NCBI GenBank assembly: GCA_002897695.1
Contig: BDTG01000018.1
Coordinates: 1 to 26,961 of the forward strand
DNA: 26,961 nt
Direction: 5' to 3'
Origin: a bacterium BMS3Abin14
GTDB lineage: Bacteria; BMS3Abin14
Of this stretch, positions 6,267-22,066 are shown piece after piece. The position numbers and the translations under genes are program-made. Under the pieces are notes generated by a model, which made no database searches, was not told where the DNA came from, and saw only the letters and a list, made by a program, of their open reading frames with translations. How positions within the stretch are numbered: position 1 is the first letter of the stretch; the number at the start of each line of letters is the position of its first letter.

Positions 6267-6297
6267 AAAAAAAAAGGGCAACCGTTTCGAGCTGCCC
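6267..6297 (-). terminator. Rho-independent terminator after ferritin-like gene
   Basis: On the minus strand GGGCAGC pairs with GTTGCCC (one G-T pair) around a TCGAAACG loop, and nine T's follow immediately (A-run at 6267-6275 on the plus strand). It sits 23 bases after the stop at 6320 and ends the 4Fe-4S/ferritin-like unit. Confidence 0.85.
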
Positions 6298-6319: not shown

Positions 6320-6847
6320 TCAGTGTTCCAGGGATATCTCCTGGTAGCCCAGCCAGAAACCGGTCCCCTGGAGAGAATCCAGCTCGGCCTGGATGATCTT
6401 CACGTGGCCCTCCTCAATGGCCTGGATGCTCTGGTAGAAGGACCTTGCCACATCCTCTTCGGCCCCGGCGGCCTGTTCAATATAAAATTCCACAGCTTTT
6501 TTCTCAAACCCGAGCGCTTCCTGGAGAGCCTTCATGTCATCAAAGTCATCCTGGGCGTCCACATGGCCGTTCGGAAAAATAAGCTTCTCCTGGTCTATCT
6601 TACCAAACCTGGCAACAGCCTGATCGTACGTCATCCAGGGTTCGTTATTGGTGATGGATTTGAAAAGAGCGGCAAAAATTGCCATGTGCTCCATCTCGTC
6701 CTTGGCCAGCTGCTCGAACACCTTCTTTCCTGCAGGGTCTTTGCTGCTCGCTGCCGCAATCCGATAAAACCTGCACCCTTTCTTCTCGGTTTCAAGCGCG
6801 ATCTGAAGGGCTTTTACATGTGATTCTCTCTTCTCGGACATTTTCAT
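6320..6847 (-). CDS. Ferritin-like diiron protein (rubrerythrin-type helical domain)
   Basis: 175-residue four-helix-bundle protein of the COG1633/ferritin-like group, without a rubredoxin domain. Diiron ligands are seen in the expected order: Glu in helix A (ALETEKKG), ExxH in helix B (KDEMEHMAIF), Glu in helix C (ALGFEKKAVEFY) and ExxH in helix D (IEEGHVKII). It probably binds iron and reduces peroxide or stores or handles iron. Start ATG 6847 has GAGGAG just upstream; a second in-frame ATG follows two codons later. It lies 25 bases after a second ferritin-like gene, with a strong terminator after it. The two proteins are clearly different in sequence, so this is not a recent duplication. 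Confidence 0.85.
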   Translation of the reverse strand: MKMSEKRESHVKALQIALETEKKGCRFYRIAAASSKDPAGKKVFEQLAKDEMEHMAIFAALFKSITNNEPWMTYDQAVARFGKIDQEKLIFPNGHVDAQDDFDDMKALQEALGFEKKAVEFYIEQAAGAEEDVARSFYQSIQAIEEGHVKIIQAELDSLQGTGFWLGYQEISLEH

Positions 6848-6872: not shown

Positions 6873-7367
6873 TTATGCCAGGAGATCCTTCTTCAGGTCG
6901 TTAAGAAGCTTCAGATGTTTTACTTCCTCCAGCCGCAAACGATCAAACGCCTGCTTCCCCGTCCCGTCCCGGGTGGCGTCCCGAAGGAATAAAAAATATT
7001 CAACAGCCTGTTTCTCGGCAAGGATGCCGATGTCGATAGCCTTGATGGCGCTGTCCGCGCCACGAACGATGGCCTCCGCCTTTTCTGGGTTTGGAAACAC
7101 GGGCTGTTTCTCAATCTTTCGGAGGTATTGGGCCATCATCTCCTGGTCTTCCTCACGATACCACTCAGGGGCGAAGATCGGTTCGATCTCCTCCTTGATT
7201 ACCCTGCGATGTTCCTTTTCAGAATTTGCCAGATGCTGAAAAAGGTCCCTGATCCGGTAGTCCGTAGCCGCCTGGGCCACCCTTGTGTAGAAGTTATACC
7301 CTGCAATTTCAAGCTCGAGACCCAAAGTTACGGCCTCATGCGGGCCGTATGCTTTTTTCTGATCCAT
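6873..7367 (-). CDS. Ferritin-like diiron protein, second type
   Basis: 164-residue helical protein of the same broad family as its downstream neighbour. Ligand pattern: Glu in LELEIAGYNFY, ExxH in NSEKEHRRV, Glu in LAEKQAVEYF and ExxH in LEEVKHLKL. The insert between helices B and C (EPIFAPEWYREEDQEMM...) and the GADSAIKAIDIGI segment set it apart from rubrerythrin. There is no rubredoxin centre, so its electron donor must be another protein; the 4Fe-4S protein encoded 90 bases upstream is the obvious candidate (inference). ATG 7367 is chosen because AGGGGGG precedes it closely. A start at 7424 would add 19 residues with no ribosome binding site. Confidence 0.83.
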   Translation of the reverse strand: MDQKKAYGPHEAVTLGLELEIAGYNFYTRVAQAATDYRIRDLFQHLANSEKEHRRVIKEEIEPIFAPEWYREEDQEMMAQYLRKIEKQPVFPNPEKAEAIVRGADSAIKAIDIGILAEKQAVEYFLFLRDATRDGTGKQAFDRLRLEEVKHLKLLNDLKKDLLA

Positions 7368-7457
7368 TGGAGCCCCCCTTGCCATAAATGGCTTGCAAAA
7401 CTGTTCGGGATGAAACACGGCCAACAGCTTGAGATGTTACCAGAAAGAGTTATTAAG

Positions 7458-8279
7458 TTAAAGGGTAAGAGCCCGACCAGGCGAGGCGGCAGCGCCTCCC
7501 AAAGCGTTCTCCTCCACAAAATCACCCTTGATGCCAACCCGGTGAAGCGTAGTGGGGATATCCTTTCCACTCGCCTCAAGGGCCTGTTTGACCAACTGGA
7601 CAAGACCTGAACAGCAGGGGACCTCCATATACACAACCTCGATGGAACGGAGGTCATTCTGCCTGAAGATCTCGGTCAGCTTTTCAAGGCAAGCCTCTGA
7701 ATTGTCCAGCTTGGGGCACCCTACCAACAGGGTTCTTCCTTTCAGAAACCGCCCGTGGAAATCACCGTAGGCGAAAGGGACGCAGTCAGCAGCTATGAGC
7801 AGCCGGGCATGATCGAAGAAGGGCGCATTGGGAGGAGCGAGCATGATCTGAACCGGCCAACTACCCAATTGTGATTCGAGGGAGCCGGAATTACCGACAG
7901 CCGGTCCGGGCATGGCGGCCGGGCCTTCGTTGAAAGTCTGCGGCAGGGATCCCGGACATCCGCCGAAGGATGGTTCGGGTGCCTCAGACAAAACTTCTTT
8001 TTTGTGCGGTCGGCCCTGGGTACCTTCGAGCCCGGAGAGGCTTTGCAGGCGTTTTTCAACCGCATCTTCATCGAACCGGGCGGCATCCCTGTCCACAAGA
8101 GTAATGGCATCCTGGGGGCATTCCCCCAGACAGGCCCCCAGGCCATCGCAGTAGACGTCGCTGACAAGCCTGGCCTTTCCATCTACGATCTGCAGGGCGC
8201 CCTCAGCGCATCCGGGGACACATAACCCGCACCCGTCACACTTCTCCTCATCAATCTGAACTACAGTTCTTACGGCCAT
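7458..8279 (-). CDS. 4Fe-4S dicluster protein with Cys-rich C-terminal domain
   Basis: 273-residue cytoplasmic protein of an anaerobe family with no settled function. The N-terminal ferredoxin part has a full set Cys14, 17, 20, 24 and a second set Cys44, 50, 54 (CDGLGACLGECP) in which one usual Cys position is Leu47. A Gly/Pro-rich linker (about 86-140) holds GGCPG. The C-terminal domain (about 141-252) has further conserved-looking cysteines: 166 (ADCVPF), 188 (GCPKLDN), 197 and the pair 222-223 (VPCCSG), which could bind another cluster. Start ATG 8279 has AGGAGG five bases upstream; a longer frame to 8369 has none. It heads a unit with two ferritin-like genes, behind an FNR-type box, so it may be their reductant or an iron-handling partner. 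Confidence 0.82.
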   Translation of the reverse strand: MAVRTVVQIDEEKCDGCGLCVPGCAEGALQIVDGKARLVSDVYCDGLGACLGECPQDAITLVDRDAARFDEDAVEKRLQSLSGLEGTQGRPHKKEVLSEAPEPSFGGCPGSLPQTFNEGPAAMPGPAVGNSGSLESQLGSWPVQIMLAPPNAPFFDHARLLIAADCVPFAYGDFHGRFLKGRTLLVGCPKLDNSEACLEKLTEIFRQNDLRSIEVVYMEVPCCSGLVQLVKQALEASGKDIPTTLHRVGIKGDFVEENALGGAAASPGRALTL

Positions 8280-8382
8280 TTCAACCTCCTGGTCTATTTT
8301 TGAACGCTTCCGTCTAAATGTAACAAAGGGGAGGGAGAAAAACAGTGGAAACAGCCTGGAGTATCCCAATAAACGCCCTTAT

Positions 8383-8396
8383 TTGATACGGATCAA
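8383..8396 (-). promoter_or_regulatory. FNR/CRP-family binding site
   Basis: TTGATACGGATCAA is an exact match to the FNR consensus TTGAT-N4-ATCAA. It lies about 110 bases upstream of the 4Fe-4S gene start and after the desulfoferrodoxin stop. A weak -10-like GATACT lies at 8365-8360 on the minus strand. The placement suits control of the 4Fe-4S/ferritin-like unit by an FNR-type oxygen (or NO) sensor, probably activation. No fnr gene is in the window. Confidence 0.75.
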
Positions 8397-8441
8397 AAGA
8401 TGTGTCCTCCTCCCCATCCAGGCAGTGGAAGGGAGAAGGAC
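8395..8441 (-). terminator. Candidate terminator after desulfoferrodoxin gene
   Basis: On the minus strand GTCCTTCTCCC (8441-8431) pairs over 11 bp with GGGAGGAGGAC (8414-8404), one pair being G-T, around a 16-base loop. A TTTT run follows five bases later and overlaps the FNR box. The offset of the T-run makes it weaker than a textbook terminator. Confidence 0.5.
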
Positions 8442-8451
8442 ATGAACGACC

Positions 8452-8826
8452 TCAGGACTTCCAGTGCCCGTGAACGTTGCAGTACTCCCGAGCGGTGAGG
8501 GTCTTTGAGTCGATGCAGAAGGTAGCCTCCGGTGCGTCGCCGGGCTTCAGGAACTCCCGGTACGCTTTCCCGTCGGCGACGACCTCGATCCACTCGATGA
8601 AGTGCTCATCCTGCATGGGATGAGGCACACTTCCAACGGAAACCTTGATCCCGTGATCGGTCTGCTGGATAACCGGAACGTGCTTCTCTTTGGCGGCATC
8701 CACGGTGTTCTCCTCCATGAGAATCATTGGCTTGCCGCAGCAGACGAGCTCGCCCATACCTCCGTCGAGCACCTCAACGATATTGCCGCAAAGATCACAT
8801 TTGTAGATCTGTAGCCTGTCAGCCAT
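8452..8826 (-). CDS. dfx: Desulfoferrodoxin (superoxide reductase, 2Fe-SOR)
   Basis: 124-residue superoxide reductase that turns superoxide into hydrogen peroxide with electrons from rubredoxin-type donors, in the cytoplasm of anaerobes. The N-terminal desulforedoxin centre has Cys10, Cys13, Cys29 and Cys30. The catalytic iron site has His49, His69, His75, Cys116 and His119, with Glu47 beside it (KEKHVP). All these match the positions of Desulfovibrio desulfoferrodoxin, so both metal centres should form. ATG 8826 has AAGGAG six bases upstream. It lies 37 bases after rubrerythrin, which would remove the peroxide made here, so the two are a functional pair in one operon. Confidence 0.97.
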
Positions 8827-8863
8827 TTTTATCTCCTTTCCGAGCAACGATAAACGTTCTATT

Positions 8864-9436
8864 TTACCAGTTCTCTGCGAGAAGCTCGAAATGCGCCCTG
8901 GAGTGAGCGCATGCCGGGCATTCACTCGGGGCTTCCTTGCCCGTATGCAGGTAGCCGCAGTTCCGGCAGCGCCACACAACCTCCTCGTCCTTCTTAAACA
9001 CTTTGCCTGCCTCGATATTGGCCTTAAGGCCCAGGTACCGCTTTTCATGTTGTTTCTCGGCCACGGCAATTGCCTCGAAAATGGCCGCGATGTCATTAAA
9101 ACCCTCTTCCCTGGCCACCACTGCGAAACCGGGGTACATTTCCGTCCACTCGTGATTCTCTCCCCCCGCTGATGCCCCAAGATTCTCCGCGGTGGATCCG
9201 ACTACCCCCGCAGGGAAGGAAGCCTGAACCTCGACCTCACCACCCTCGAGGAGCTTAAACAACCTTTTGGCATGTTCCTTTTCCTGGTCTGCCGTTTCCT
9301 CGAAAATCGTTGAAATCTGCACGAACCCTTCTTTCTTTGCCTTGGCCGCAAAGTAAGTGTAGCGGTTTCTTGCCTGAGATTCGCCCGCGAAGGCGGTCAG
9401 TATATTCTTCTCTGTACGTGTCCCCTTGATTTTCAT
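8864..9436 (-). CDS. rbr: Rubrerythrin
   Basis: 190-residue rubrerythrin, an NADH-linked peroxide reductase of anaerobes, at the normal length. The diiron domain shows Glu19 (GES), E52KEH55, a Glu-rich helix around 94-110 and E127KQH130. The C-terminal rubredoxin domain has Cys157, Cys160, Cys173 and Cys176. All ligands are intact. ATG 9436 is chosen: GGAGG stands ten bases upstream and residues [11 protein letters not shown] match the family start, whereas a longer frame (9478) would add 14 unusual residues. It is upstream of desulfoferrodoxin and downstream of perR and the TIGR02757 gene, so it is likely PerR-controlled. Confidence 0.97.
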
Positions 9437-9511: not shown

Positions 9512-10297
9512 CTAATGGTTTGCCTCATCCCAAAGAAAAAAATCTTCAAAACTCATGTCATCCCTGATTCCGAGCCTTGTAAGTGAAAAGTCATACCGTA
9601 CAGGGTCGTCCGGCGAAATCTTCCTGAAGGCCGACGTGACCTCCACAGTGGTCCTGAGGTCAGCCTGATTTCTCTTCGTCATGCCGAGCCCCCGGCAGAT
9701 CCGGTGCATGTGCACATCCAAAGGGACCATCAGCATGGTCCTCGGGATATTCCTCCATCCCCCCGGATCCACGTCATCCTCCCTGACCATCCAGCGAAGA
9801 AAAAGGTGTAATCTCTTACATGCGCTTCCCCTCGATGGACAGGGCAGCAGCCTGCCGTCCTCACAGTCCATATTATAGCGAACTTTACCCACGAAGGCGG
9901 TCAGCGCCCCTGTCAGGTCGGTATCCTCTGGCTTCACACCATCCATGAAACAGGACTCCAGAGACCCGTATTGACGAATAATCTCGCCAAGCCCCCAAAG
10001 CAGGGATGCCATCTCCCGCCCGGTAGTCCACCTGTGCTTGAAACCGGCGAAATCATGCGTAATGGCCTCCCTGGTAGACCCAAGGACGTAGGCGGCCGGT
10101 GAGGAAATGACGCCAAAAACCGTTTCGAGGCTTCTGATTATCTGCTGGACCCTTCCGTAGGCCAGAGAGGATGCGACCAGGGCGGCTATCTCCCTGTCGG
10201 CGATATCCTCAAACCTGTAAATGGTCGCAAGGGGATCGGGGTAGACGTACTCCCTGCGATTCAGGCGTCCATACAGAGCGTCAAGCCTCTTTTTCAT
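9512..10297 (-). CDS. TIGR02757 family protein (DUF2400), function unknown
   Basis: 261-residue protein of the TIGR02757 family. Recognised features are the DPLATIYRFEDIADREIAAL opening, LAYGRVQQI, the SRGSACKRLHLFLRWMVR stretch, and the VPLDVHMHRICRGLGMTKR and DPVRYDFSLTRLGI segments. The PLDxHxxRxxRxLG and helical layout recall HhH-type DNA glycosylases, but I cannot assign an activity. ATG 10297 has GAGGTGA seven bases upstream and leaves a seven-base gap to perR; a longer frame to 10354 would overlap perR and is disfavoured. It sits between perR and rubrerythrin in one direction, so it is probably induced with the peroxide response. Confidence 0.85.
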   Translation of the reverse strand: MKKRLDALYGRLNRREYVYPDPLATIYRFEDIADREIAALVASSLAYGRVQQIIRSLETVFGVISSPAAYVLGSTREAITHDFAGFKHRWTTGREMASLLWGLGEIIRQYGSLESCFMDGVKPEDTDLTGALTAFVGKVRYNMDCEDGRLLPCPSRGSACKRLHLFLRWMVREDDVDPGGWRNIPRTMLMVPLDVHMHRICRGLGMTKRNQADLRTTVEVTSAFRKISPDDPVRYDFSLTRLGIRDDMSFEDFFLWDEANH

Positions 10298-10304
10298 GAG
10301 CACA

Positions 10305-10760
10305 TCACCTCGACGGATGCTTCCTGCCGTCCTGGGTCCCCGGGAACGTTTCACCGTCTACAGTTTTCGTATTTCCGGTACAATCGGGGCAGAGGCCGAC
10401 GAATTCCAACCGGTGTCCGAGAAGTCGAAAATTACCCAGCGCCCTCGCTACCTCCTTCAGATCGACCGAGGTTTTGACATGGACGTCCATGACCTTTCCG
10501 CAGCCGACACATCGCGCATGGTAATGGGGAGTCATGTTGCCGTCAAAGCGCCTCTGAGCGCCATCGGCGTCAATCCTTCGAACAATGCCCGCACATGACA
10601 GGACATCCAGGTTACGGTAGACCGTACCCAAGCTGATTCGCGGCATTTTCTCACGAATCACCGAATAGAGGTCGTCCGCTGTGGGATGGCTGTCCATCCC
10701 GGTCAGGGTTTCCAATATCGCCCTGCGCTGTCTGGTCATCCTTGGAAAGTGATTTTCCAT
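10305..10760 (-). CDS. perR: PerR-type Fur family transcriptional regulator
   Basis: 151-residue metal-dependent repressor. The winged helix holds PRISLGTVYRNLDVL (recognition helix). Regulatory metal ligands equivalent to B. subtilis PerR are all visible: His25, Asp73, His79, His81 and Asp92 (the Asp that marks PerR rather than Fur). The structural zinc site is C84VGC87 and C124PDC127. Such proteins sense H2O2 by oxidation of a ligand His and then release DNA. The C-terminal tail (about 128-151) is longer than usual and polar. A 9-bp inverted repeat lies 41 bases upstream over its own -10 box, so it should repress itself and the following TIGR02757, rubrerythrin and desulfoferrodoxin genes. 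PerR rather than Fur is an inference from Asp92 and context. Confidence 0.88.
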   Translation of the reverse strand: MENHFPRMTRQRRAILETLTGMDSHPTADDLYSVIREKMPRISLGTVYRNLDVLSCAGIVRRIDADGAQRRFDGNMTPHYHARCVGCGKVMDVHVKTSVDLKEVARALGNFRLLGHRLEFVGLCPDCTGNTKTVDGETFPGTQDGRKHPSR

Positions 10761-12595: not shown

Positions 12596-14098
12596 TTAAC
12601 TATCCGTGCCACACGCCATTCTTTCCTGCGAGAGCACGGGGAGGCGGAAGGAAAAGACGGTCCCGATACCAACGGTGCTCAGAACCTCAAGCTCCCCTTC
12701 GTGAAGATTTACTATCCTTCTGGCAATAGCCAGCCCCAGGCCCGTCCCCTCAGGCGCATCCTCTGCCGAGTCACCTGCGCGGAAGTAGCGATTGAAGATA
12801 TGCGGCAGATCCTCCTTCAGGATGCCGGGCCCGGTATCCTGGACCTGGACGACCATCTCTTCATCCTCCTGATGGATTGATATGGTCACAATGCCCCCAT
12901 CGGAGGAGTACTGGAGAGCATTCTTGACCAGGTTCTCCAGGGTCCTCTCCATAAGGCCGATATCCGCTACAACGAGGGGAAGGTGGCTGGAAAAATCACT
13001 GATAAGCCTGACACCTTTTTTGTCCGCCGAAAGCTGAAACTTCTGGATAATATCCTGGGCCAGCTCGCATACCGAAAAGGGCTCCGGATGGGTGCGAACT
13101 CCATGGGCGTCCAACTGGGACAGCTCGAAAAGATCAGCCACCATTCTCCTCAGCCTGTCGCTCTGCTTCAGGGCGGTTTCAAGGAACCTTTCCCTCTCCT
13201 CGTCAGAAAGGTTTTTTTTCAGGAGGAGGGTCTCCAGGTAGCCCTGAAGGGATGTGAGCGGTGTTCGAAGGTCATGGGAAATATTGGTCACGAGTTCCCG
13301 TCTCAATCGATCCCCATCCTCCAGATCCCAGACCTGTTTTTTGATCCTTTTTGCCATGGCATCAAAGACCATCTGCAGTTTCTCGATCTCGTCCCGCGGA
13401 ATCTTTTTTTCAGCGTCTTCCGGCAATGATATTTCACCATCATCCGGCGGCATGAACGTCTCGATACTGCTGGTAAGCTTCCGCAATCGCCTGGTAAGGT
13501 AGTTGAAGAGAATCAGCCCCGTGATGGAAACCAGGAGCAACCCCAGCAGCGCGTAGTAGATGGAGAGCCGGGCGATATGGCTCGCGGCGAGCATCTTCCC
13601 GATTGACACATCCTCGCCCTCACCGAGCGTAATGTAGAGGTAGCCCTCAACGTCCCCCTTTGTGGGGATGGGACAGGCCGAGAAGATCGTGCGATGGTTG
13701 AGGTCCATGGGATCATCCCCGTAAATGGGCAGTTTTCCCTTCCTGCTGTTGAACATGAAAATCGGCTCAAGCGCTACGTGCTCCAGCAGGAGTTCATCGG
13801 AACGCACGGAAGAGGCGAGGATGTGACCGAACCTGTCAAGAACGTAGACCTGAACGCCTGGATCAACCTGGTGCAGATCATTGTAGATCTCCACCATCAC
13901 CGGTTCGTTTACACCACCGTCTTTGATAATAACACGATGGGAAACGAGTTCCTTGGCGATGGAACGGTTCAGCCTCTGGCTGGCCTCCTGAAAATACATA
14001 CGGTTTGAAAAGAGGGTAATAATGATCAGGATAAAGCCCAGGATGGAGAACAGGGCAAGCATGATGGCGGCGAGCTTTCCGTGGACGGATCTTATCAT
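12596..14098 (-). CDS. Sensor histidine kinase
   Basis: 500-residue membrane kinase. Layout: transmembrane helix about 8-30, extracytoplasmic sensor domain about 31-177, second helix about 178-200, HAMP about 200-255, dimerisation domain with phospho-acceptor His275 (NISHDLRTPLTS), and ATPase domain with N392 (NLVKNALQYS), D420TGPG and G450TGLG. All catalytic motifs are intact. It starts at ATG 14098 within the stop of the response regulator (ATGA), so the pair is coupled; a longer frame to 14146 is disfavoured. The sensor domain signal is unknown. The pair follows phoU, which suggests a link to phosphate or envelope status, but that is an inference. Confidence 0.92.
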   Translation of the reverse strand: MIRSVHGKLAAIMLALFSILGFILIIITLFSNRMYFQEASQRLNRSIAKELVSHRVIIKDGGVNEPVMVEIYNDLHQVDPGVQVYVLDRFGHILASSVRSDELLLEHVALEPIFMFNSRKGKLPIYGDDPMDLNHRTIFSACPIPTKGDVEGYLYITLGEGEDVSIGKMLAASHIARLSIYYALLGLLLVSITGLILFNYLTRRLRKLTSSIETFMPPDDGEISLPEDAEKKIPRDEIEKLQMVFDAMAKRIKKQVWDLEDGDRLRRELVTNISHDLRTPLTSLQGYLETLLLKKNLSDEERERFLETALKQSDRLRRMVADLFELSQLDAHGVRTHPEPFSVCELAQDIIQKFQLSADKKGVRLISDFSSHLPLVVADIGLMERTLENLVKNALQYSSDGGIVTISIHQEDEEMVVQVQDTGPGILKEDLPHIFNRYFRAGDSAEDAPEGTGLGLAIARRIVNLHEGELEVLSTVGIGTVFSFRLPVLSQERMACGTDS

Positions 14099-14844
14099 TT
14101 GCCCGTCAGTTCCTCCGGTTCGGCGAACCTGTACCCCACACCCCATACGGTCAGTATATATTCCGGTTTGACCGGATCATGTTCTATCTTCCCCCGGAGC
14201 CTGTTGATATGGGAGTTGACCGTGTGCTCGTACCCCTCATACCCGTAGCCCCAAACCTGATCCAGCAGCTGGGAACGAGTGTAGACTTTCCCCGGGTTCC
14301 GGGCAAAATGATAGAGGAGGTCGTATTCCCTGGCCGTCAGCCTGACCCTTTTACCGTCCATTCTGACCTTCCTCCTGGCCGCGTCTATGGTCAAACGGCC
14401 TGTGGCAAGGAGGTCCTCACCCTCACCTTCCGGTGCAATCAAAAGATCCGCCCGGCGAAAGATAGCCTTGACCCTGGCAAGGAGTTCCCTGATGCTGAAT
14501 GGTTTGGTCAGGTAATCGTCGGCGCCCGAGTCCAGGCCGGAGACCCGGTCGGCTTCCGAGCTTTTGGCCGTGAGCATGAGGATGGGGAGGGATTTGTCCT
14601 GTTCCCTGACTCTGCTGCAGATCTCCATTCCGTCGATCCCGGGGAGCATGAGATCGAGGATAATCAGGTCGTATGGGTCCTTTCCGGCCATGGACAGCCC
14701 GCTTGTGCCGTCATAGGCCAGTCTCACCTCGTATCCCTGGTCCTTGAGGTGAAGTTCAACGAGGTGCGATATGTCCCGGTCGTCCTCCACAAGAAGGATC
14801 CTTTTAGGTGTCTCGTTGACCATGTCCACATCATAGTCGGGCAT
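14095..14844 (-). CDS. OmpR/PhoB-type response regulator
   Basis: 249-residue response regulator. The receiver domain has the acidic pair in LLVEDDRD, phospho-acceptor Asp64 (LILDLMLPG) and the KPFSIRELLARVKA end. The C-terminal winged-helix domain shows LTAREYDLLYHFARNPGKVYTR and HINRLRGKIE, ending ILTVWGVGYRF. It pairs with the overlapping histidine kinase. Start ATG 14844 is uncertain: ATG 14823 would give a more usual N-terminus and neither has a clear ribosome binding site. It is 43 bases downstream of phoU, so it is probably in the phosphate operon. It is distinct from the PhoB homologue at 21307-21996. Confidence 0.9.
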   Translation of the reverse strand: MPDYDVDMVNETPKRILLVEDDRDISHLVELHLKDQGYEVRLAYDGTSGLSMAGKDPYDLIILDLMLPGIDGMEICSRVREQDKSLPILMLTAKSSEADRVSGLDSGADDYLTKPFSIRELLARVKAIFRRADLLIAPEGEGEDLLATGRLTIDAARRKVRMDGKRVRLTAREYDLLYHFARNPGKVYTRSQLLDQVWGYGYEGYEHTVNSHINRLRGKIEHDPVKPEYILTVWGVGYRFAEPEELTGK

Positions 14845-14887
14845 GGCCAGAATTAGAATAGAATAACTTCACGGAATAATAACGTGC

Positions 14888-15550
14888 TCAGGTGAAGTCT
14901 TCCGCCTGGTGCCGGACGATTTCCCCTTCCACCATGTAGATGACGTCTTCGGCGATATTGGTGGCATGGTCGGCCACTCTTTCGAGGTGCCGGGTAGCTG
15001 AAAGATGGTGGATCAGGTCCTCCGCCCGCTGGGGATTCTTCATGATCCTCTCGTAGATGATGGTGAACATCTCACTGTTCATCTCGTCCACCTCGTCGTC
15101 CATCTTAAGCACCTCACGGGCCATATGTGCGTCCATATTTACCAAAGCGTCGAGGCTCTTTTCCAGCATTTCCTGGGCCTTCTGGGCCATGCCCGCCAGG
15201 TTCAGGGGAACCTCCAGCGGCTCACGGCTGCTCAGGAACAGCGCCCTTTCCGCAAGGTTGACGGCAAGATCCCCTATGCGCTCCAGATCGCTGTTGATGC
15301 GAAGGACAGCCACGATGAACCTGAGGTCGATGGCCACAGGCTGGTGAAGGGCAAGGATCTTCAGCCCCTCCTCTTCAAGGTCCACCTCCATTTTGTCGAT
15401 TTTAAAGTCATCCTCAATGATCTCCCGCGCCAGGCCGGCGTCCCGGGTTTCCAGCGCGAGGACCGATTTCTTCATCGCATCCTCGGCCACGGCCCCCAGG
15501 GCCAGGATCATCTTCTTCAATCTTCCAATCTCGATCTGCAGTCTGGTCAT
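14888..15550 (-). CDS. phoU: Phosphate signalling protein PhoU
   Basis: 220-residue, all-helical protein made of two PhoU repeats. Repeat 1 includes LRFIVAVLRINSDLERIGDLAVNLAE and repeat 2 includes LIHHLSATRHLERVADHATNIAEDVIYM, the two metal-binding E/DxxxD-type motifs of the family. PhoU links PstSCAB to the PhoR kinase and keeps the regulon off when phosphate is plentiful. ATG 15550 is chosen: AAGGAG lies ten bases upstream and the protein then has the family length, while the longer frame to 15679 adds 43 basic residues overlapping pstB. It is the last canonical pst gene before the second two-component pair. Confidence 0.96.
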   Translation of the reverse strand: MTRLQIEIGRLKKMILALGAVAEDAMKKSVLALETRDAGLAREIIEDDFKIDKMEVDLEEEGLKILALHQPVAIDLRFIVAVLRINSDLERIGDLAVNLAERALFLSSREPLEVPLNLAGMAQKAQEMLEKSLDALVNMDAHMAREVLKMDDEVDEMNSEMFTIIYERIMKNPQRAEDLIHHLSATRHLERVADHATNIAEDVIYMVEGEIVRHQAEDFT

Positions 15551-15581
15551 CTGTCCTGTACTCCTTTCCGAAGCGCCGCCG

Positions 15582-16409
15582 TCAACCGAAACGCCCAGTA
15601 ATGTAATCTTCCGTTTGCTTCTTCTCCGGTCTGGTAAAGATCTCCTTCGTCGGCCCGGACTCGATGATGTGACCCTCATAGAAAAACGCAGTATAGTCGG
15701 ATATTCTGGCAGCTTGCTGCATATTGTGGGTAACGACCACGATGGTAAAATCCTTCTTCAAATCGGCTACAAGTTTCTCAATCCTCGCAGTGCCAACCGG
15801 ATCAATCGCGGAAGTAGGTTCGTCCATAAGAATCACTTCCGGTTCCACCGCCAGGGCTCGGGCGATGCAGAGCCGTTGCTGCTGGCCTCCGGAAATGGTT
15901 GTGCCCGGACGGTGGAGCATGTCCTTGACCTCGTCAAACAGGGCCGCCTGCACCAGGGCTTTTTCTACCCTTTCGGTCAGTTGAGCTCTGGACATGCGGT
16001 AATGGAGCCTCAACCCGTAGGCAACATTTTCAAATATACTCAGCGTGAAAGGGGTGGGTTTCTGAAAGATCATCCCCACCCGGCGCCGCACATCCAGGAC
16101 ATCAACTCCCGGGTCGAGGATATTCTCTCCATCCAGTATGATCTCTCCCGCGGCCCGCTGGTTTCTGTACAGCTCGAAGATACGGTTGTAAGCCCTCAGG
16201 TGGGTTGACTTGCCGCAGCCGGATGGACCGATAATGGCGGTCACCCTGTTGGCGGCAATGTCCAGGCTGTTTTTATACAGAGCCTGGTTGTTCCCGTAGA
16301 AAAAATCGAGTTCCCGAATTGAGATCTTGACTTCCTCCCTGGCGGGGCTCTCCTCCGAACGATAGTCGAAGGAGGGAATGATGCTGTTTTTTGAAGTCTG
16401 CTGTATCAT
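15582..16409 (-). CDS. pstB: Phosphate ABC transporter ATP-binding protein PstB
   Basis: 275-residue ATPase of the PstSCAB phosphate importer. Motifs: Walker [10 protein letters not shown] (about 61-69), Q-loop IFQKPTPF, signature [14 protein letters not shown], Walker [14 protein letters not shown] and switch His in VVTHNMQQ. Small departures from the usual PstB text ([18 protein letters not shown]) are conservative. An N-terminal extension of about 27 residues precedes the first strand. Its ATG overlaps the pstA stop (ATGA), and GAGAGGA lies just upstream. Confidence 0.97.
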
Positions 16410-17257
16410 TTTTCATTTCCTCTCAGGGCAAGAAATACCCGGGAAATGATCGTTGTCCCCAGAACCCCCGCCGTTATCAGAAATGCGGCTCCCCACGCCT
16501 GTGCCTGCCAGTCCGTGTAGGGAGACATGGCGTAATTGTAGATGGTGACGGTGAGGTTTCCTGTCGGACCGTTCAGTGATCCGGACCAGTAGGGGCTGTT
16601 GAGCGCGGTAAAGAGAAGAGGCGCCGTTTCGCCGGTGACCCTCGCGATGGCCAGGAGAGATCCGGTGACCAGACCCGTTTTTGCAGCGCCCAGAACCACC
16701 CCCAGGGTGGCTTTCCACCGAGGCGCTCCAAGGGCCAGGGCCGACTCCCGGACAGCGTTGGGCACGAGAAGCAGCATGTCCTCAGTGGTGCGAGAGACGA
16801 CGGGCAACATGATTACGGCCAGGGAGACAGCTCCCGCGTACCCGGAGAAGTGCCCTGCAGGCAGGACCATCACCACGTAGATAAACACTCCGATAATGAT
16901 GGAGGGAGTTCCCATGAGAATATTGGACGAGAACCGGACCACCGTGGCGATTCGGGACTGCCGACCGAATTCCGAAAGAAAAATGCCCGCCAGCATACCT
17001 ACCGGCACCCCTATGACGGTGGCCAGGATGGTCATTACCGCCGTTCCAGCGATAGCGTTGCCAAGCCCTCCGCCGGGAACCCCGGGAGGCGTGGGCAGAG
17101 CCGTGAGAAACTCCCAGTTGATGACCCTGACACCCCGAGCGAGGATCACCCACAGGATCCACCCCAGGAAAATGATTCCCGTCAGGGCGGCCAACATGGA
17201 AATGAACCGGACCGCGCCGTCAGTCCACTTCCTGAGCCAAATGGATCGTTCCCTCAT
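16406..17257 (-). CDS. pstA: Phosphate ABC transporter permease PstA
   Basis: 283-residue inner-membrane permease with about six transmembrane helices. PstA features include [29 protein letters not shown] near the start of the transport domain and the EAA-type loop [26 protein letters not shown] that contacts PstB. It overlaps pstC by one base (TGATG) and pstB by four (ATGA), so the three transporter genes are translationally coupled. Confidence 0.96.
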
Positions 17258-18207
17258 CAGACATCCCCCATCCTGCGTCCCATCCTCCAGAGCCAGAACT
17301 GGGCAGCGGCCTGGATAAGCGCCGTGATCAGGAAGAGAACCAGCCCCAGTTCCACCAGGGAACTCAAGTAAATGTCCGCCGTGGCTTCCGTGAATTCATT
17401 GGCCAGTGTGGAGGCGATGCTGTTGCCGGCGGCAAACAGGGAGGAGGAGATCCGGTGAGTATTCCCGATTACGAAGGTCACCGCCATAGTCTCCCCGATT
17501 GCCCTACCCAATCCCAGGAAACAGGCGCCGACAACCCCCTGGATTCCGTACCTCACGGTTACTTTTCCGGTCACTTCCCACGTTGTGGAACCGAGGCCGT
17601 AGGCCGACTCCTTGACTACGGGGGGAACCATGGCAAAGACTTCCCGGGAGACGGTGGTGATGAAGGGGAGGATCATCAAGGCCAGAATAATACCCGCTGT
17701 CAACATGCCGATTCCCATGGGGGGGCCCTGGAAAAACGGAAGGCTTCCACCTACCCGTCCCAGGAAGGGCTGGACGTATTCCGACATGAAGGGGGCGAAG
17801 ACGAAAAGCCCCCACATGCCGAAGATGATGCTGGGAATAGCTGCCAGAAGCTCGATGGCGCCACCCACCGCGGTGGCTAGGACAGGGGGGGCCAGCTCTG
17901 TCAGGAAAAGGGCAATCACCAGGGCCAGGGGTACGGCGATAACCATGGCTATCGCCGTTGAAACGAGGGTACCAAAAACGCTGCTGAGAGCCCCGAATTG
18001 CTGAGTCACCGGATTCCACTTCAGGGAATACAGAAAACGGATTCCTGTTTCAGCGATTGACAATCGTGCCCCGTATATCAGTTCCGCCAGCACTCCCATC
18101 ACAATGACAATGATGCAGGCGGCGCACGTGAGGGACACCCAACGAAAGAGCGAATCGAATCTTCGTTGCCTCCATCGTCCCGGCTCCCCGGTGTTTTTTG
18201 GTATCAT
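17257..18207 (-). CDS. pstC: Phosphate ABC transporter permease PstC
   Basis: 316-residue partner permease of PstA with about six transmembrane helices after a basic N-terminus. The EAA loop REVFAMVPPVVKESAYGLGSTTWEVT and the family stretch ELLAAIPSIIFGMWGLFVFAPF are clear. ATG 18207 is chosen because GAGGA, lying across the pstS stop codon, is well spaced from it. A start at 18225 would overlap pstS and lacks a ribosome binding site. Confidence 0.96.
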   Translation of the reverse strand: MIPKNTGEPGRWRQRRFDSLFRWVSLTCAACIIVIVMGVLAELIYGARLSIAETGIRFLYSLKWNPVTQQFGALSSVFGTLVSTAIAMVIAVPLALVIALFLTELAPPVLATAVGGAIELLAAIPSIIFGMWGLFVFAPFMSEYVQPFLGRVGGSLPFFQGPPMGIGMLTAGIILALMILPFITTVSREVFAMVPPVVKESAYGLGSTTWEVTGKVTVRYGIQGVVGACFLGLGRAIGETMAVTFVIGNTHRISSSLFAAGNSIASTLANEFTEATADIYLSSLVELGLVLFLITALIQAAAQFWLWRMGRRMGDV

Positions 18208-18215
18208 CCGTTTCC

Positions 18216-19280
18216 TCAGGGCCATACCGGTTTGCCACCGGCTGAGATTTCAGTCTTCCAGGTTTTCTCAACCAGTTTAAACACCGATTCGGGCATGGGG
18301 ACATAATCCAGCTTCGCGGCCAGTTCGGCGCCGTGTTTGTAGCACCAGTCGAAGAAGGAAAGGACCTCTTTCGCCAGGGCTGGTTTTGTCTGTTCCCTAT
18401 AGATGAGAATGAATGAGGCCCCCGTAATAGGCCAACTCCCATCGCCAGGCTGGTCGGTAAGGACGACATAGAATCCGGGGGAATTCTTCCAGTCGGCATT
18501 GGCTGCAGCGGCCTGAAAAGATTCGGACGTCGGGGCCACAAAATTACCGGACTTGTTCTTCAGCAGGACATATGTCAGTTTGTTCTGAAGTGCGTAGGCA
18601 TACTCCACGTATCCTATGGATCCGCTAACCTGCCTCACATAGGTTGCGACACCCTCGTTGCCCTTGCCGCCGACTCCCACAGGCCACTGAACCGCCTTGG
18701 CCGTCCCGACGGCCTCGTGCCAATCGGGGGAAACCTTGTCGAGGTAGTTGGTAAAGATCCATGTGGTCCCCGACCCATCGGCGCGGTGGACAACTGTTAT
18801 CATCTTTCCGGGAAGCTTCAGACCAGGGTTAACCTTTTCAATGGCGGGATCATCCCATTTTACGATCCTGCCGAGGAAGATGTCGGACAGCAGTTCGGGG
18901 GTCAGCCGAAGTTTGCCGGCCTCGATCCCCCGGATATTGACCACAGGCGCAACACCGCCCATGATCAAAGGGAATTGAATCAGTCCGGCCCTTTTAAGCT
19001 CGACAGGCTTCAGGGGGGCATCCGATGCCCCGAAATCCACCGTCCTGGCCTTTATCTGGCGGATTCCTCCCCCGGAACCGATGGACTGGTAGTTGACCCT
19101 TATCTTGTTGAGCTTTTCGTACCTGTAGGCCCACTGAGCATAGACCGGGAAAGGGAAACTGGCACCCGCACCGTTGATGGTCAAGGGGCCGGCCATAGCA
19201 GGTAGTGACAGCCACGAAATTGACGCCAGAGCTATGGCCAGAATGGCGAACTTCAAACGAATCACATTCTTTCTCATCAT
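18216..19280 (-). CDS. pstS: Phosphate-binding protein PstS
   Basis: 354-residue periplasmic phosphate-binding protein. A basic start (MMRKNVIRLK) and hydrophobic segment end in a signal peptidase I-like site (LPAMA-G, about residue 30). Binding-loop motifs are NGAGASFPFPVYAQW, GSGGGIRQ, DFGASDAPL and ADGSGTTWIFTNYL. The length matches the family. ATG 19280 follows AGGAGG by seven bases; a longer frame to 19328 would mask the signal peptide. Four 11-bp PhoB-type repeats stand 64-107 bases upstream, so expression should rise under phosphate starvation. Confidence 0.97.
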   Translation of the reverse strand: MMRKNVIRLKFAILAIALASISWLSLPAMAGPLTINGAGASFPFPVYAQWAYRYEKLNKIRVNYQSIGSGGGIRQIKARTVDFGASDAPLKPVELKRAGLIQFPLIMGGVAPVVNIRGIEAGKLRLTPELLSDIFLGRIVKWDDPAIEKVNPGLKLPGKMITVVHRADGSGTTWIFTNYLDKVSPDWHEAVGTAKAVQWPVGVGGKGNEGVATYVRQVSGSIGYVEYAYALQNKLTYVLLKNKSGNFVAPTSESFQAAAANADWKNSPGFYVVLTDQPGDGSWPITGASFILIYREQTKPALAKEVLSFFDWCYKHGAELAAKLDYVPMPESVFKLVEKTWKTEISAGGKPVWP

Positions 19281-19343
19281 TTTCTTCCTCCTGGAACGGG
19301 TTGTTGGATCATAATTCACATTCGTCATGGTGAGAGGATAGGA

Positions 19344-19387
19344 GGTTTATGTTAAATGCGCGTTAAGGGAAGATTATTTTCCTGTTA
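19344..19387 (-). promoter_or_regulatory. Pho box: four tandem 11-bp repeats upstream of pstS
   Basis: Read on the minus strand, four consecutive 11-mers begin TAAC, TAAT, TAAC and TAAC (19387-19377, 19376-19366, 19365-19355, 19354-19344). The exact 11-base period matches how PhoB monomers bind tandem half-sites on one DNA face. The half-site differs from the E. coli CTGTCAT. Downstream TATCCT is a weak -10. Confidence 0.7.
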
Positions 19388-19407
19388 GGGGAAAACGGGA
19401 CCGGCGT

Positions 19408-21225
19408 TTAGAGACCAGGGTTAAGAGTTCCAGGTTTTATTCCTGGGGCAGGCAGGGTAATGGTAAAGGTACTGCCTATCCCGGGGGTGCTGATCACTTT
19501 GACAACACCTCCGTGAGCCTGGGCTATATGTTTGACGATGGCAAGACCGAGACCCGTTCCTCCCAGGTTCCGACTGCGGAATTTATCTACCCTGTAAAAT
19601 CGCTCGAATATCTTCGACATATGCCGCTTTTCGATACCACAACCCTGATCCCGGACTGAGATCAGAACTTCAGACATCCCCCTGGAAGCTGAAACTTCGA
19701 CCAAATTTCCCTCCGCGCTATACGCGATCCCGTTCTGGATGAGGTTGATTATCGCCTGCGCAAGAAGGGAAGGGCCGGCCATTACGGTAAGGCCATCAGG
19801 ACAGCTGATCGGCACAGAAATGCTTTTTTCCTCAGCCTCGGCGCTGCAGGCTGAAACCGCCTGATGGAGGATCTCATCGACATGCACTTTTTCGAAGGAA
19901 ACTTCGCCCCTGAGCGTCTGGTCCTCGGCCATGGACAGGTTCAGTAGATCCTCCACGATGGCGTTGAGCCTGTCGGAATGCTTCAGGATGATGTCGAGAA
20001 ACCTTTCCGCCGTTGCCCTGTCTTCCAGCGCACCGTCAAGCAGAGTTTCCACAAACCCCTTGATAGAGGTAATAGGGGTCCGGATTTCGTGGGAGGCGTT
20101 GGCGACGAAATCGCGTCTTATCCGCTCCAACCGCCTTACTTTCGAAACGTCGTTAAGCACCACCACGGCCCCGACTCTTTTTCCATCTGCCCCGAGGAGA
20201 GGCGTGCCATGAAGCTGCAGCGTGCTTTCCCGTGGACTCCTGAGAACGATTTCTCCCTCAATGGCCAGGGAACTGCTGATAGTCCTTGCGACAAAATCCT
20301 GCAGGTCCGGATTTCTGACTACCTCCTGGATGGTTCGGCCCTGTGCCTCGCCGGGGTCGGTCCCCAGCATCCTGGACGCGGCCTCGTTGAGACTGATAAC
20401 CCTTTCATCGGCATCCAGCGCCAGCACCCCTTCCGTCATGCTGGAGAGTACCGCCTCCAGTTCGTTCCTCTGGTCGAGAACAACGCGTATCCTGTCGTCC
20501 AGATGCCCGGCCATGTGGTTCATCTCCTCAGCAAGTTCGGCAAACTCCTCCACTTTTGGAACCGGCAGCCTGGCGGAAAACTCGCCGTGGCCAAAGCGTT
20601 TGGCCCCCTCCCGCATGGACCTGAGCGGGGCCGTAATCCTGCGTGACAGGAAAACGCTGAGAAGCGCGACCAGGATTCCCAGAACGATGGCGCCGCCCCC
20701 CAGCCGGACCCTTTGGGTCCAGAGGGCCTCGGAGAGTGTGGAAACAGGCAGAGCCACCCGGACAACACCTTCGTTCGGGTTGCTGAAAATTGGGGCAGCC
20801 ACGTACATGAGAGTCTTTTCCAGAGTGTGGCTGTATCTCACGGATGTGCCGCTTCCATCCCTTATCGCGTCCCTGATCTCAGGGCGATCGGAATGGTTGT
20901 CCATGAGCGCCGGATCTTTTACTGAATCGCACAGCACTTTCCCGGATCGGCGAACTATGGTCACCCGTGTAGCAGACCTGTTCCCGAATTCCCCGCACCA
21001 CCCCGTCAGATCGGGTCGTACTCCAGGGAGGGGAAGGCCCCTTGGAGAGATCTGGGCAATTCCGTCGGCGGCCACCCGTGCGAGGGCTTTGAGATCGTCG
21101 CTTTTCCTCTCGAAGTAAAACCGGGTCATGTCCCGGGCAGCGAACCATGCCACTCCACCCAGAGAGATGGCGGCTATGGCCAGGAAGGAGGGAAGCAATA
21201 CCCATGTGAGGCTTCTACGGAACAC
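19408..21225 (-). CDS. phoR: Phosphate regulon sensor kinase PhoR-like
   Basis: 605-residue histidine kinase. Layout: helix about 8-30, extracytoplasmic domain about 31-172, second helix about 175-195, HAMP about 195-245, PAS domain about 255-360, phospho-acceptor His379 (NASHEIRTPITS), then the ATPase domain with NLIQNGIAYS, DQGCGI and GGTGLGLAIVKHI. The large outer domain is bigger than in E. coli PhoR and resembles the PnpS/PhoR type of Gram-positive and delta-proteobacterial systems. The start is GTG 21225 with CAGGAG six bases upstream. It follows phoB by 81 bases and precedes the pst operon, so it is very probably the phosphate kinase. Confidence 0.93.
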   Translation of the reverse strand: MFRRSLTWVLLPSFLAIAAISLGGVAWFAARDMTRFYFERKSDDLKALARVAADGIAQISPRGLPLPGVRPDLTGWCGEFGNRSATRVTIVRRSGKVLCDSVKDPALMDNHSDRPEIRDAIRDGSGTSVRYSHTLEKTLMYVAAPIFSNPNEGVVRVALPVSTLSEALWTQRVRLGGGAIVLGILVALLSVFLSRRITAPLRSMREGAKRFGHGEFSARLPVPKVEEFAELAEEMNHMAGHLDDRIRVVLDQRNELEAVLSSMTEGVLALDADERVISLNEAASRMLGTDPGEAQGRTIQEVVRNPDLQDFVARTISSSLAIEGEIVLRSPRESTLQLHGTPLLGADGKRVGAVVVLNDVSKVRRLERIRRDFVANASHEIRTPITSIKGFVETLLDGALEDRATAERFLDIILKHSDRLNAIVEDLLNLSMAEDQTLRGEVSFEKVHVDEILHQAVSACSAEAEEKSISVPISCPDGLTVMAGPSLLAQAIINLIQNGIAYSAEGNLVEVSASRGMSEVLISVRDQGCGIEKRHMSKIFERFYRVDKFRSRNLGGTGLGLAIVKHIAQAHGGVVKVISTPGIGSTFTITLPAPGIKPGTLNPGL

Positions 21226-21306
21226 GCAAGGCTCCTGATTTTATCCTGTTCCAGATTATCCTGGCAGGGTCGTGATAAATCCATTGATGTTTTTTTTGCA
21301 AAGCCA

Positions 21307-21996
21307 TCATTCCTTGAACCTGTACCCTACTCCACGGACCGTCTCGATCTGCCCGCCGACATTTCCCAGTTTCTTCCGAAGGCTGAAGACATGAACATCA
21401 ACCGATCTTTCTGTCACCGCGTAGTCGTCACCTTTGACGGCATCCACGATTTGGGACCTGGTGAAGACCCACCCCGGCCGCCGGGCGAGAAAAAGCAGGA
21501 TGTTGAACTCTGTGAAGGTGACCGGGACGGAAACACCACTGGAAACAACCTCGCGTCTCCCGGGGTGGATAGCCAGGCATCCTCTCTCAATAACGGGGGC
21601 TCCGTCGTCCCCGGACCAGGCATTTGAACGCCTGAGAATTGCCTTGACCCTCGCCACAAGAACCTTCGGTGAAAACGGTTTGACAATGTAGTCGTCCGCG
21701 CCCAACTCCAGGCCCACGACAACATCAGTTTCATCCCTCTTGGCCGTGACCATCACGACAGGTATGGAACGCGTGAACTGGTCTGCCAAAAGACGCCTGC
21801 GGACCTCCAGACCGTCAACCCCCGGCAGCATCAGGTCCAGAAGAACGATATCGGGCCGACTGGAGCTCGCGAGGCTGAGCCCTTCCTCTCCTGACCGGGC
21901 CACCTTGACTACAAAGCCCTCCCGTACCAGATTGTACTCAATCAGCTCGGCGATGTCCTCATCATCCTCTATTACGAGGATACGCTTCTTTTCCAT
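21307..21996 (-). CDS. phoB: Phosphate regulon response regulator PhoB-like
   Basis: 229-residue OmpR-family response regulator. The receiver domain has IEDDED, phospho-acceptor Asp54 (VLLDLMLPG) and VTAKRDE, ending KPFSPKVLVARVKAILRR. The winged helix carries FTEFNILLFLARRPGWVFTRSQIVD and RSVDVHVFSLRKKLG. ATG 21996 is chosen over GTG 22002 because AAGGAG is eight bases from the ATG but only two from the GTG. It heads the phoBR pair and probably binds the 11-bp repeats before pstS. Confidence 0.93.
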   Translation of the reverse strand: MEKKRILVIEDDEDIAELIEYNLVREGFVVKVARSGEEGLSLASSSRPDIVLLDLMLPGVDGLEVRRRLLADQFTRSIPVVMVTAKRDETDVVVGLELGADDYIVKPFSPKVLVARVKAILRRSNAWSGDDGAPVIERGCLAIHPGRREVVSSGVSVPVTFTEFNILLFLARRPGWVFTRSQIVDAVKGDDYAVTERSVDVHVFSLRKKLGNVGGQIETVRGVGYRFKE

Positions 21997-22066
21997 CCGC
22001 ACTGCTCCTTTTCAGTTCCGGACCATGCATGCAAGTCGTTCCGTTGTCGGGAATACCTCCCTGACT

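Follow-up and report, generated by a model that had tools for sequence, protein, structure and literature searches.

Ferredoxin-like proteins encoded behind HcpR-type boxes are known from the HcpR regulons of Desulfovibrio, Desulfuromonas and Clostridioides difficile. The gene was named frdX by Rodionov and colleagues and is preceded by HcpR sites with the consensus TTGAC-N4-GTCAA (PMC545781, PMC1274295); its product is known as a ferredoxin-like protein associated with the hybrid cluster protein, Hcp (PMC545781, PMC1274295, PMC12915319). In C. difficile, NO raises frdX expression about 220-fold and a knock-down of the gene is sensitive to NO, and the exact function of FrdX is described as unclear, though the protein is required for NO resistance (PMC12915319). 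Also known are rubredoxin-less, rubrerythrin-like peroxidases that are fed by a separate reductase (PMC3317640).

The window (the whole 26,961-nucleotide stretch of DNA analyzed here) carries three genes, frdX-flp1-flp2, that resemble the HcpR regulon in encoding a ferredoxin-like protein behind an HcpR-type box. They differ from it in two respects: searches of the host and of 11 relatives turned up no hcp, and the fixed neighbors are two ferritin-like diiron proteins, FLP1 and FLP2. The known part is the FrdX/Hcp NO-defense unit; the new part is FrdX with two FLPs in a lineage where hcp was sought and not found. Classification as an hcp-frdX operon was rejected for this reason, and the locus is filed as a variant.

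FrdX and its usual partner

The gene at 7458..8279 (minus strand) was described in the original prediction as an unassigned 4Fe-4S protein lacking a partner. Its product of 273 residues combines an N-terminal 2[4Fe-4S] ferredoxin domain (Fer4 matches, residues ~4-63) with a C-terminal domain (~106-262), and shared operon context together with full-length homology identifies it, with high confidence, as FrdX, the ferredoxin-like partner of Hcp. It aligns over its full length with ferredoxin-like proteins of hcp operons (L040, L060, L090, L097 and others) at 44-56% identity, and these belong to the same family, with all 13 invariant cysteines in common. Its likeness to the FrdX of the published HcpR regulons runs through operon context and homologs, not through direct alignment.

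In 72 FrdX sequences from many phyla, the eight cysteines of the ferredoxin domain are all invariant, as are C108, C166, C188, C222 and C223 of the C-terminal domain (13 in all). The extra C-terminal cysteines pointed out earlier are therefore largely borne out, namely 166, 188, 222 and 223; C108 had been missed, and C197 is not conserved, being peculiar to the window FrdX (Tyr in 65 of the 72 homologs, Cys in the window alone). The C-terminal domain is conserved across many bacterial phyla and in one archaeal MAG. Across the 72 members, residues 106-262 hit no Pfam family, and the domain matches no NCBIfam model and, by sequence, no solved structure. An AlphaFold model is alpha/beta and confident (pLDDT 88.9, pTM 0.83), and in it C166, C188 and C222/C223 each come after one of three consecutive strands, a placement that would suit a metal or thiol site. 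Fold searches gave a best Z of 6.8 with VIA (1g5c, 106 residues at 3.8 A), a level shared by unrelated Rossmann-like folds, and Foldseek E-values of at least 1.4e-2 throughout; a beta-carbonic anhydrase-like fold is not accepted, its middling matches being tied with other folds.

A survey of one genome per species yielded 80 frdX loci from many phyla, of which the 76 outside the host's family were compared. The commonest neighbor is hcp, found near frdX at 28 of the 76 and in every case within 1.5 kb. An HcpR-like or Rrf2 regulator lies near frdX at 40 of these loci, a flavodiiron protein at 9, rubrerythrin at 8 and desulfoferrodoxin at 7. Within the host's family, hcp (TIGR01703 over its cut-off) was found in none of 12 genomes, seven of them at least 90% complete; the sole candidate elsewhere in the host genome is CO-dehydrogenase-like, falls far below the cut-off, and was rejected. 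The family thus retains FrdX in the apparent absence of the partner it usually has, with FLP1 and FLP2 as fixed neighbors. All 12 family genomes encode a flavodiiron NO/O2 reductase at another locus, so NO/O2 reduction does not necessarily rest on the frdX unit.

The diiron proteins and the conserved island

FLP1 (6873..7367, PF02915) and FLP2 (6320..6847, PF02915/PF13668), both on the minus strand, are rubredoxin-free ferritin-like diiron proteins that follow frdX, as had been read from the sequence. They are only 22% identical, and each keeps two E-X(28-30)-E-x-x-H ligand sets. Their nearest solved relatives, TM1526 (1vjx) and 2oh3 (COG1633), are both uncharacterized. They share with ferriperoxin and sulerythrin the ferritin-like fold class, the diiron ligands, the absence of rubredoxin and the need for an external donor (PMC3317640); they differ in that a sequence comparison with sulerythrin gave nothing at E<=1, and peroxidase activity is, by analogy, putative for them. 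The unit ends at a strong intrinsic terminator, GGGCAGCTCGAAACGGTTGCCC-T9 (6267..6297, minus strand; 8-bp stem, -13.2 kcal/mol), likewise as predicted, and the grouping of the three genes into one unit is supported.

The order FrdX-FLP1-FLP2 is retained across genera of the host's family. The linkage to ferritin-like genes, which had been put forward as the check on the prediction, accordingly recurs in the family; outside it, such genes lie near frdX at only 5 of 76 loci (at one within 1.5 kb). Since the linkage is weak there, the partnership of FrdX with the FLPs may be mere co-regulation. Among the hits of the literature searches, no paper connects FrdX with ferritin-like proteins.

The C-terminal domain is linked to diiron proteins twice in the host genome, as a stand-alone copy is encoded with a hemerythrin HHE gene in an apparent operon on contig C10 of the host genome (L116:7984-8592 and 7424-7981, minus strand). 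This copy is without the ferredoxin domain and has all five invariant cysteines. A similar pairing is seen in L127, and HHE genes lie near FrdX in L078 and L057.

Upstream of the unit, all on the minus strand, lie genes for a desulfoferrodoxin (superoxide reductase, 8452..8829), a rubrerythrin with its own rubredoxin domain (8864..9436), a DUF2400/TIGR02757 protein (9512..10354) and a Fur-family regulator (10305..10760) that among NCBIfam models matches PerR best, with a score under the curated cut-off. Neither these genes nor the hairpin described below had been mentioned before. Where contigs are long enough, the family keeps the order PerR-DUF2400-Rbr-Dfx-[Rrf2]-FrdX-FLP1-FLP2-FxsA with small exceptions, and the peroxide/superoxide defense context suggested for the unit is to that extent upheld. 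Between the desulfoferrodoxin gene and the box stands a strong hairpin followed by a short U-rich stretch (8403..8442, minus strand; -27.4 kcal/mol, z -4.18), possibly the end of the upstream unit; a same-genus genome (L120) has a hairpin of other sequence at the same place (z -2.31). DUF2400/TIGR02757 also recurs beside rubrerythrin or flavodiiron genes, both in the host's family and in the Actinomycetota loci L041, L043 and L053. Elsewhere in the window, 12596-22002 holds a phosphate-uptake cluster (periplasmic phosphate-binding-like protein, two permeases, ATPase and PhoU-like protein, with a response regulator/histidine kinase pair on both sides), its genes being named from ORF translations alone.

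Given the PerR-like regulator and the peroxide genes upstream, the locus can also be read in terms of oxidative stress alone: in this view the unit serves mainly peroxide/superoxide defense, FrdX donates to two rubredoxin-free rubrerythrin-like peroxidases, and PerR is the main input with the box one of several. The fixed island fits this, as do the Rbr, Dfx or FprA genes that adjoin frdX in several Actinomycetota and Nitrospirota loci, and a rubredoxin-less ferriperoxin with an external reductase provides a precedent (PMC3317640). We nonetheless consider it unlikely: the commonest neighbor of frdX in the 76 outside loci is hcp rather than a peroxidase, and in the window the hairpin and the box stand between frdX and the Dfx-Rbr genes.

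The box and its candidate regulator

The palindromic box of HcpR/DNR/FNR type, TTGATCCGTATCAA, lies at 8383..8396 (minus strand), spanning -117 to -104 relative to the start of frdX; it is a perfect TTGAT-N4-ATCAA palindrome 104-117 nt 5' of the ATG at 8279. The original prediction had correctly placed a perfect FNR-consensus site before the 4Fe-4S gene. Within the 2.28-Mb genome, TTGATACGGATCAA is the sole perfect TTGATNNNNATCAA, where about one is expected by chance. Genome-wide enrichment was rejected as evidence, because counts are near expectation and most sites fall inside ORFs; with about one perfect site per 2.3 Mb close to chance, the weight of the box comes from its position and conservation.

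These were assessed by counting perfect TTGAY-N4-RTCAA sites within 300 nt 5' of frdX against shuffled sequence. Such sites precede frdX at 7 of 10 family loci (shuffle mean 0.02), L126 being left out of the count as it has hardly any upstream sequence, and no box, and at 7 of 76 loci outside the family (shuffle mean 0.135). The seven family boxes (window, L120, L035, L036, L038, L123, L124) lie at -107 to -166, with the core retained and the flanks diverged; L120 has an identical core, at -107. The remaining three loci (L037, L125, L128) have no box before frdX and carry an Rrf2 gene directly upstream instead. The same box class is found upstream of hcp at all eight loci with an HcpR-like neighbor and at one of the loci with an Rrf2 neighbor. 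Box and upstream Rrf2 gene are nearly mutually exclusive before frdX and hcp, in the family and across phyla, and genome G010 has one locus of each type. From this distribution, frdX/hcp units seem to be regulated either by an HcpR-type box or else by an Rrf2 regulator.

Outside the family, frdX promoters have a -10-like hexamer starting 22 nt past the box, the spacing expected of an activator bound at -41.5. A canonical class II promoter was sought at the family frdX genes, and no -10 was found at class II distance from the box, so that activation through the box is something we infer there. The position of the box relative to the start codon differs between the window and L120 by 10 bp, about one helical turn, which would, weakly, fit a class I activator. 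At the seven family loci with a box, the stretch 9 to 30 nt beyond it also holds a GTTTT...GTT block, which is loosely conserved and has no recognizable -10 around it.

Compared with the published consensus (PMC1274295), the sites are HcpR-type palindromes, and the box is assigned to the HcpR/DNR class, a better match to an NO regulator than to an oxygen regulator. The sole clear Crp/Fnr HTH protein of the host genome is encoded on contig C43 (L117:2104-2844), and its architecture, lack of a cysteine cluster and ExxSR helix class it as DNR/HcpR type. Its only cysteines (53, 126, 178) are not conserved in orthologs and form no N-terminal cluster, a lack it shares with HcpR/DNR regulators. The recognition helix, VETFSR, is of the FNR-type ExxSR form and fits TTGA half-sites; most hcp-adjacent HcpR proteins have PETLSR. 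Of the solved structures, P. aeruginosa DNR scores highest against it, at 95.5 bits, and the best FNR-type entry reaches 43.8; identity to hcp-adjacent HcpR-like regulators is 33-37%. Heme/NO binding of the DNR/HcpR kind is putative for it. It differs from HcpR/DNR regulators in being encoded on another contig, not beside frdX. Overlapping its stop codon is a ygbA-like gene (YgbA_NO, nitrous-oxide-stimulated promoter) of an NO-induced kind (pair L117:2104-3203). No ortholog was found in G003, G004, G006 and G011, three of which keep the box, and G004 lacks a detectable ortholog although it is 99% complete; in G001 the gene is cut by a contig end.

A second perfect TTGAY-N4-RTCAA box in promoter position stands upstream of a DUF1858-DUF438-hemerythrin-PAS gene on contig C28 (L140:1-1447, minus strand), 22 nt ahead of a TATTCT -10; of the 8 family orthologs, 5 have a perfect copy. 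Genes of this type are reported to be induced by nitrosative stress and, in desulfuricans, to respond to NO or nitrite (PMC5701242). The regulator class, the YgbA_NO overlap and this second box favor NO over oxygen as the signal, and NO-type regulation of the frdX unit is likely.

The second box also bears on the idea that the unit serves Fe-S repair or iron handling, with the FLPs capturing or donating iron under nitrosative stress while FrdX senses or repairs clusters, much as YtfE/RIC. YtfE/RIC and DUF438-hemerythrin NO-repair proteins are likewise diiron proteins, and in the host genome they too are linked with this class of box and with genes for FrdX domains; the stand-alone C-terminal domain paired with hemerythrin (contig C10; also L127) points the same way. 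They differ in their hemerythrin fold and in being encoded elsewhere in the genome; the FLPs are not YtfE homologs, and their intact catalytic-type diiron ligands fit catalysis as well. Iron handling is an improbable main role.

The regulation originally proposed, by a canonical 4Fe-4S FNR in an oxygen-responsive regulon controlling a peroxide-reductase or iron-handling unit, fares worse. The box is a perfect FNR consensus, and a superoxide reductase, a rubrerythrin and a PerR-like regulator are neighbors; but a regulator with the FNR cysteine cluster was sought in the host genome and not found, the one clear Crp/Fnr protein there resembles DNR/HcpR, and elsewhere frdX and hcp with the same box class adjoin HcpR-like regulators, so we hold FNR control to be quite unlikely. 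That the genes are constitutive housekeeping genes behind a chance palindrome, as the single genome-wide site at an expectation of about one might suggest, is very improbable: seven family loci conserve the core, at -107 to -166, amid flanks that have diverged, where 0.02 would be expected.

Proposed role of the unit

On balance, we favor the view that frdX-flp1-flp2 is a nitrosative/oxidative stress unit in which the diiron proteins have taken the partner role of Hcp. NO would be sensed by the DNR/HcpR-type regulator encoded on contig C43, which would bind the TTGAT-N4-ATCAA box and switch on the three genes, with transcription stopping at the 6267-6297 terminator. FrdX would carry two [4Fe-4S] clusters, its five invariant C-terminal cysteines would probably build a further cluster or thiol site, and it would hand electrons to a metal-center partner, this being Hcp in most of the lineages examined that have a recognizable neighbor. 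In the hcp-less family FLP1 and FLP2 would be the most likely partner, acting as peroxide or NO reductases or as iron handlers in Fe-S repair; electron transfer from FrdX to the FLPs is a step we propose only tentatively.

A lineage that has frdX, in which no hcp was found and which has two small diiron proteins instead, uncouples FrdX from Hcp, and FLP1 and FLP2 provide a minimal, testable partner set for it. It is conceivable, if doubtful, that the C-terminal domain gives FrdX a third metal or thiol site and that the protein is a general donor of electrons to various metal-center NO or peroxide reductases; here it would then drive the two rubredoxin-free FLPs, as an NO or peroxide reductase not described before.
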